From contig JBAMJV010008239.1 of the NCBI GenBank assembly GCA_037951105.1, positions 1 to 64,000 of the forward strand: a DNA stretch of 64,000 nt, in the 5' to 3' direction. Made by a program: the position numbers and the translations under genes. The notes beneath the pieces were generated by a model. That model was given only the letters and a program-made list of their open reading frames with translations, made no database searches and was not told where the DNA came from. Positions 45,500 through 62,942 of the stretch are shown piece by piece (the first letter of the stretch is position 1; each line of letters begins with the position of its first letter). This DNA comes from Echinarachnius parma (lineage: Eukaryota > Echinodermata > Echinoidea > Clypeasteroida > Echinarachniidae).

Positions 45500-45595
45500 A
45501 TGGTTCTACGGGATGGAAAGTAAATCTCTTGGATGTATGCATTTCTCTCGGTCGACACTTCCTCCTTCAGTGTCTTAGTGGAAATATTCTGAAAT
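45500..45595 (-). repeat. old copy of exon 17, downstream 3
   Basis: The - strand reads ISTKTLKEEVSTERNAYIQE, resembling [18 protein letters not shown]. It is the most diverged copy and could be chance at its edges. Confidence 0.5.

Positions 45596-62942: not shown

Follow-up and report, generated by a model that had tools for sequence, protein, structure and literature searches.

Partial tandem copies of exons in the introns of an MSH2 gene of Echinarachnius parma and their apparent turnover between gene versions

Why should the introns of an MSH2 gene hold so many fragments of the exons next to them? The gene lies in a stretch of 64,000 nucleotides from Echinarachnius parma (hereafter the window; contig C8226 of a 1.2-Gb assembly in 14,790 contigs), on the minus strand at 46653-62942, and is visible from exon 2 to the stop codon. 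Nine HMMER stretches identify it through their match to 2o8b_A (MSH2; E 1.4e-248), a chain that we take to be human MSH2; exon 1 was not recognized by eye in 62950-64000. As scripted, an AG acceptor precedes 16 of the 17 visible exons and a GT donor follows 15 of the 17, the last exon having no donor and the scripted boundaries of e11b being off. A search of the assembly with the e2 segment returned two further MSH2 contigs, C823 and C12354, of which 30 kb each were compared (the C12354 sequence starts only at 26001). Both are colinear with the MSH2 of the window in megablast blocks that are ~80-99% identical, 28 of the 38 blocks of C823 exceeding 88%. The three contigs may be alleles, homeologs or different animals, and some other MutS genes also occur on two or three contigs, as seen in a MutS_V census. 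Relative to both other MSH2 contigs, each of e3 and e4 in the window has one extra base within a run of C or G, and its e4 is one base longer than five other aligned e4 exon or copy sequences; these bases point to base errors of the contig or to a broken gene version. A transposable element was rejected as the source of the copies, the e2 segment being present only on the three MSH2 contigs in a search that skips very common words and was made with e2 alone.

A sequence-only reading of the window had listed copies beside nine MSH2 exons, some 17 in all. Counting as a copy any direct match of at least 20 bp (E<=1e-4) that lies in the gene but outside its exons, we recovered all nine and added e11, so that direct partial copies accompany 10 of the 17 visible exons (e2, e4, e6, e8, e11, e12, e13, e14b, e15 and e16; the exons that the reading had numbered 5b, 7, 15, 16 and 17 are here e6, e8, e14b, e15 and e16). 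By the same criterion, 8 and 7 of 17 exons have copies in the two further contigs. The window has ~17 copies in total, three each at e14b and e16, two each at e2, e8 and e13, and one each at e4, e6, e11, e12 and e15 (Table 1). Their identity to the exons ranges from 100% in the e2 unit down to 71% in the distal e16 copy, in agreement with the different ages that had been proposed. A target at least 80% identical exists within the gene for 33.0% of the exonic bases of the window MSH2 (853 of 2587), the values for the three versions being 33.0, 32.5 and 24.3%. All of this is in direct orientation: inverted exon copies were absent from MSH2 at E<=1e-4, as were inverted clusters 60-1000 bp apart from each of the three versions, and E<=0.01 added a single 35-bp inverted match of e8 at 10.7 kb (E 0.001), together with a small number of inverted pairs and palindromes in introns. 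The similarity persists in self-comparisons with the DUST filter on and is not a matter of low-complexity sequence, an outcome that the reading had named as refuting; the filter was off in the three-contig copy count.

Table 1 Positions in the window of the MSH2 exons, of their copies and of neighboring features
Feature	Position	Strand	Remarks
Cholinesterase-like gene, visible exons	9359-17394	+	
Exon e2, functional	62797..62942	-	HMMER match and splice-site script
e2 tandem array	62430..62828	-	179 bp, 2.2 copies (TRF); exon-2 end, donor and intron
Older decayed exon-2 copy inside the e2 array	62666-62721 and 62487-62542	-	
Exon e3	61935-62133		
Exon e4	61299..61519	-	
e4 5'-part copy	61638..61789	-	In all three MSH2 contigs
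Exon e6	59443..59563	-	
e6 3'-part copy	59219..59311	-	With donor; in window and C12354, absent from C823
Exon e8	57009..57262	-	
e8 3'-part copies, two	56806-56877, 56626-56717 (span 56626..56877)	-	Decayed
Exon e11	55143..55314	-	
e11 3'-end copy	55029..55058	-	30 bp, 114 bp away; undetected in C823 and C12354
Exon e11b	53885-53948	-	Boundaries from letters and positions
Exon e12	53288..53510	-	Walker A
e12 3'-part copy	53125..53249	-	Decayed; also in C823, shortened in C12354
Exon e13	50476..50643	-	
e13 5'-part copies, two	50872-50965, 51085-51176 (span 50872..51176)	-	
Imperfect palindrome	50740-50846		107 bp, MITE-like; between e13 and its first copy
Exon e14b	48691..48845	-	
e14b 3'-part, three further ~225-bp units	48015..48585	-	Array 48001-48804, 3.6 copies
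Exon e15	47254..47429	-	
e15 5'-part copy	47557..47665	-	95%; absent from C12354
Last exon e16	46653..46814	-	With stop
e16 near-full upstream copy	46887..46993	-	Acceptor and frame kept; 54-bp in-frame deletion; stop lost
e16 3'-end copy in 3' flank	46485..46564	-	In all three contigs
e16 3'-end copy, older	46081..46132	-	Also in C823

The typical copy comprises one exon end, the adjoining splice junction and a piece of intron. Donor-side copies (e2, e6, e8, e11, e12 and e14b) lie 3' of their exon and acceptor-side copies (e4, e13 and e15) 5' of it, which accounts for the earlier observation that copies occur on both sides of exons, and e16 has 3'-end copies in its 3' flank plus the near-full copy upstream. 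The nearest copies are offset by 114-318 bp, the 318 bp of e13 including the palindrome, and distal ones by up to 676 bp, with 980 bp between a weak e16 fragment and another copy. TRF finds contiguous head-to-tail arrays at e2 and, with a 225-bp period, at e14b. Exon and intron are alike in the young units, with 100/100% identity in that of e2 and 96/98% in the first e14b copy. In nine comparisons of older copies, exon identity exceeds intron identity, at e4 (87/63%), e6 (90/72%), e8 (78/60 and 83/64%), e11 (93/61%), e12 (82/37%), e15 (95/64%) and e16 (85/70 and 86/62%), and does so slightly in the e13 copies (83/77 and 88/78%). In the second and third copies of e14b, which have diverged by 12-15%, the values are 88/89% and 85/86% (14 intron bases in the last comparison), and this equality argues against faster intron decay there. 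All these identities come from global alignments and still include the baseline identity of unrelated introns. The missing intron tail of a copy was detected at the tandem position in only two of nine tests (e6, P 0.030; e15, P 0.033; the other seven, P 0.24-0.97), so that few of the old copies are demonstrably complete tandem units. In the intron of the e15 copy sits a dispersed repeat (47690-47780, with relatives at 17428 and 50261), beyond which homology to the functional intron resumes, close to where a unit of 236 bp would have it. One local pair, of 69% identity, is purely intronic (60371-61031); the C823 alignment lacks 60376-61003, and the region looks like an insertion/deletion difference.

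We consider it likely that these copies stem from short local tandem duplication, partly as remnants and partly as products of ongoing activity, renewed by exchange or conversion, with the introns decaying first. To begin with, segments of ~110-270 bp would be duplicated head to tail, and units laid over exactly one junction would survive, leaving the full exon intact beside a copy without one splice site, while units not spanning exactly one junction would be removed by selection. Selection would then keep the exon part alike, and this likeness would offer homology for unequal exchange or gene conversion, by which arrays could gain or lose units and form hybrids. The intron parts would meanwhile tend, with exceptions, to drift, take up dispersed repeats and fade first, until exon fragments are left in introns. 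A special mechanism for the one-splice-site pattern was dismissed by reasoning, as a ~200-bp unit over a ~150-bp exon mostly spans exactly one junction. Pure neutral decay was rejected as well: with introns decaying twice as fast, it does not fit an e15 exon part only 4.6% different yet joined to an intron that is barely alignable, and the pattern expected from faster introns is absent from the second and third e14b copies.

Local tandem duplication is not specific to MSH2, which is a dense example of it. In a control of 19 stretches (176 kb) from contigs picked arbitrarily by number, we found 46 direct clusters with members 60-1000 bp apart, at 2.61 per 10 kb and covering 9.3% of the bases, versus 13 inverted clusters; direct repeats occurred in 18 of the 19 stretches, at broadly spread offsets (median 342 bp, 125 pairs). 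With 7.65, 6.47 and 5.99 per 10 kb, covering 22-30% of bases, the direct clusters of the three MSH2 versions are 2.3-2.9 times denser than those of the control stretches, and positions 1-45000 of the window have 3.56 direct and 0.44 inverted clusters per 10 kb. Apparently partial, one-junction exon copies were also seen at four aligned candidate exons, namely a TCP-1 exon (L029), an ATP-synthase F6 exon (L017), L014 and L025. In a MutS gene on C12305 and C2484, presumably MSH4 from its motif, the Walker exon has a 94% copy 221 bp away in the former contig; in the latter it has two copies of 83-85% identity, at 1.2-1.5 kb. In the window, the last visible exon of the cholinesterase-like gene recurs four times upstream in a 257-bp array (15774-17394), and tblastn found no local copies of the six other visible exons of this gene. 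A census with family HMMs scored the best candidates only and is too insensitive for frequencies; of its 41 MutS_V matches, 7 come from local copies within MSH2 or the MSH4-like gene, and inspection by eye found no clear local duplicate within 1 kb among 63 TCP-1 and 45 DEAD matches. Pairs with overlapping model ranges were seen on C7269 (1.6 kb apart, 62 positions) and C9615 (21 positions). As it missed the TCP-1 copy seen as DNA, this census is a weak control.

That duplication acts on exons, as had been proposed, stood in part: exons are over-represented in a simulation and among candidate exons, whereas permutation gives a weak signal and direct duplications are common elsewhere, as the 46 control clusters show. 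Under circular shifts of the MSH2 exon map, 10 of 15 events touch exons where 7.4 are expected (P 0.08; P 0.13 with independent placement), and P falls to 0.02 with 10 of 12 once doubtful and transposon-like events are set aside. The simulation had uniformly placed units, exon constraint, neutral decay and the same detection, with no conversion; exons accounted for 0.31 of its detected events (350 of 1137), and relative to this share the observed 10/12, 10/13 and 10/15 have P values of 0.0003, 0.0008 and 0.0045; MSH2 was chosen for its copies, and the P values of permutation and simulation are therefore optimistic. Candidate exons were defined by a codon score of 15 or more, trained on the window, in the 19 stretches and one TCP-1 locus. 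Local duplications touch 13 of these 33 candidates and cover 25% of their bases versus 8.6% elsewhere. Without L010 and L026, whose six candidates are all touched and lie in repeat arrays, and L023, which has none, 7 of 27 candidates are touched versus 3.19 expected (P 0.027), a test that is less biased than those on MSH2, yet one in which DUST masks coding sequence less than AT-rich introns. Among 20 candidates scanned, four had a cellular domain above the cut-off and one a transposon-like match.

The mechanism that we propose does not fully explain this bias, the simulated share of 0.31 comparing with 10 of 12-15 events. It is conceivable, although we rather doubt it, that duplication is targeted to exons, with base composition, nucleosomes or transcription-linked breaks making them preferred sites beyond any effect of survival or visibility. 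The excess over the simulation and among the candidate exons would fit such targeting. However, the permutation over the MSH2 span is weak (P 0.02-0.13) in a gene picked for its copies, most candidate exons are unverified, and conversion from a conserved exon, which lies outside the simulation, also prolongs the visibility of copies. Renewal by conversion from the constrained exon is our preferred reason for the exon excess.

Such renewal can be followed across the three versions of the gene. For the sequence-only reading, long reads lacking the copies would have refuted them; C823 and C12354, from the same assembly, approach that test and gave a divided answer, some copies being shared and others absent or different in number. 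In the order window/C823/C12354, copies are common to all versions at e4 (1/1/1) and e12 (1/1/1), and e16 has 3/3/2 (C12354 compared only from 26001). Numbers differ at e2, e6, e8, e11, e13, e14b and e15, with extra copies of 1/0/1 at e6, 2/4/2 at e8, 2/3/0 at e13, 1/1/0 at e15, 3/5/2 at e14b (plus a fragment in C12354) and 1/0/0 at e11, where the 30-bp copy may be missed; at e2 each version has one decayed copy and the window alone an additional 179-bp unit. Copies of e4 and e16 are closer to each other across contigs than to the exons, and hence predate the split of the versions. The differing ages, the copy numbers varying over three contigs and the two layers at e2 bear out the earlier idea of a recurrent local duplication.

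Several loci carry traces of exchange. At e2, C823 reads repeat, spacer, repeat, and the window has one more repeat and spacer, as a single 179-bp unequal exchange between short exon-end repeats would give. The first e14b copies of the window and C823 are hybrids that have the same five copy-specific variants in their first 30 columns, after which that of the window equals the window exon and that of C823 differs from it at two places; the functional e14b of C823, in turn, carries variants otherwise typical of copies. At e6, the single exon of C823 has all three differences that separate the window copy from the window exon, and its 3' flank is identical to the flank of that copy at 126 of 127 positions. 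At e15, the single exon of C12354 bears the 5' intron of the silent copy of the window (96.6% over 235 bp), the functional intron of the window matching that of C12354 over 18 bp only; between window and C823, the functional intron is identical (127/127) and the introns of the copies are 94.9% alike. The functional 5' intron of e13 in the window resembles that of the first silent copy of C823 (94.6%), and not the functional intron of C823. From these sequences we conclude that the exon parts provide homology for repeated unequal exchange or conversion, with direct support at e2 and e14b and by extension at e6, e13 and e15, so that the junction of a functional exon in one version may correspond to a silent copy in another. 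Which of loss, gain and interallelic origin was at work cannot always be told at these loci. Unequal exchange between diverged alleles, in which copy and exon would differ from the start, seems to us rather unlikely as the origin of the duplications. It would agree with the contrast between functional and copy introns of e15, with an e15 intron divergence far above that of the exon, and with the variants that the e6 copy of the window shares with the C823 exon, but an old duplication in a single lineage followed by loss or conversion gives identical patterns.

Beyond local duplication with renewal, and more tentatively, exons might anchor self-renewing tandem repeats, conversion and exchange replacing the junctions of essential genes. 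Haplotypes would then use non-orthologous splice sites, and exon ends would behave like VNTRs under a constant protein.

False tandem copies stitched by the assembler from divergent haplotypes or sequencing errors are improbable as a general explanation. Two or three versions of some genes do exist in this assembly, e3 and e4 have their extra bases in the window, and only there does e2 have its additional 179-bp unit and e11 its 30-bp copy, such that the earlier argument against a single misassembly is not extended to those two. It does hold for the copies of e4, e12 and e16, which are on all three contigs and cannot be explained by misassembly of one of them; orthologous copies have, moreover, diverged from each other. 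Stitched alleles would hardly account for the copies of e8 and e12 and the distal one of e16, which have diverged by 18-25% and contain stop-making changes, and local direct repeats in 18 of 19 arbitrary stretches also speak against an artefact.

The coding state of the copies bears on the earlier suggestion that they supply alternative exons. Sixteen copies were aligned, and the totals are for 14, two e14b copies being omitted as not independent: these have 191 differences from the exons, 103 of them at third positions, with 96 synonymous, 95 non-synonymous and nine stop-making changes. Differences are mostly synonymous in the second e13 copy (8/11) and the third e14b copy (13/18), and all five are so in the e15 copy, a bias compatible with past use but also with recent conversion or an allelic origin. 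Purifying selection on the copies was not supported by the overall 96 to 95; the source exon also changes synonymously, so that no strong sign of constraint is seen in the copies. Functional alternative or mutually exclusive exons, which the synonymous bias at e13, e14b and e15 and the acceptor and frame of the upstream e16 copy might evoke, are thus very improbable, since every copy but the latter is without one splice site, several have stop-making changes or indels, and their number varies between contigs. The upstream e16 copy could still be a candidate alternative last exon.

How does this pattern relate to known systems? Minisatellites and coding VNTRs evolve by unequal exchange and conversion. 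The MSH2 arrays are like them in the head-to-tail units of e2 and e14b, in their hybrid units and in their copy-number differences, here between three contigs that may represent alleles, homeologs or different animals, but every array has a conserved exon of its own as anchor and consists of few copies of ~110-270 bp. With tandem exon duplication the copies share homology to exons, direct orientation and a location inside the same gene; they differ in being mostly fragments with one splice site instead of both, the upstream e16 copy being near full with a 54-bp deletion. In the accessible part of one survey, ~2% of human exonic nucleotides and 0.08 and 0.06% of those of fly and worm have a target at least 80% identical in the same gene, and a 2002 study is cited for tandem exon duplication in ~10% of animal genes (PMC9013439). 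Set beside these values from that portion of the survey, the 24-33% of MSH2 make a rough comparison of one chosen gene with genome-wide means obtained by another method (PMC9013439). Tandem genomic duplication within genes is, in the text available to us, a mechanism of intron gain (PMC3443670), and new Daphnia introns are described in a similarly partial source as carrying break-associated internal direct repeats (PMC4202315). As far as these two sources go, the likeness lies in tandem duplication or direct repeats within genes, whereas MSH2 makes no new intron and the duplicated piece stays in an existing one. Among echinoderms, the sea urchin SpTransformer (185/333) genes resemble MSH2, in the available part of their description, by repeat-associated duplication and mosaic introns, but they form an immune multigene family with whole-gene segmental duplications, in contrast with exon fragments in a housekeeping gene (PMC8634487). 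A full-text literature search of partial coverage found no description of the MSH2 pattern, and we do not claim that it is unpublished. Events of this kind, partial tandem exon duplications or coding VNTRs, are thus known, and MSH2 has them at unusual density and with apparently active turnover; as to the new feature of genome architecture announced by the sequence-only reading, density and turnover are unusual, and partial tandem exon duplication was already known. If the pattern is genome-wide, constrained exons would provide a built-in measure of how often short tandem duplications arise, how long they are and what becomes of them, and haplotype comparison would make the turnover of exon/intron junctions directly measurable. 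Annotators would be warned of many exon-like fragments in such genomes, and assemblers that the number of exon fragments varies between gene versions.

Other features were noted along the way. The COX1 gene of the assembly is on contig C14600, followed in the same orientation by frames resembling nad4L and COX2 (named by eye), with AGA at expected serine positions and TGA read as tryptophan; this gene order is the echinoderm one. In the control stretch L022, an open frame at 2459-3088 matches Pfam Baculo_FP_2nd (E 2.5e-12) and is probably a transposon protein. On the minus strand of the window, a GPCR-like single-exon open frame (29622-30749; family by eye) has no local copy detected by tblastn, and a long open frame at 1831-5130, apparently a LINE by eye, has endonuclease- and reverse-transcriptase-like motifs. 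Runs of C occupy 1181-1215, 13015-13050 and 25777-25824 (35, 36 and 48 bases, with 100, 94 and 82% matches), and a tandem repeat of 447 bp (2.7 copies, 97% matches) lies outside recognized genes at 39496-40688.
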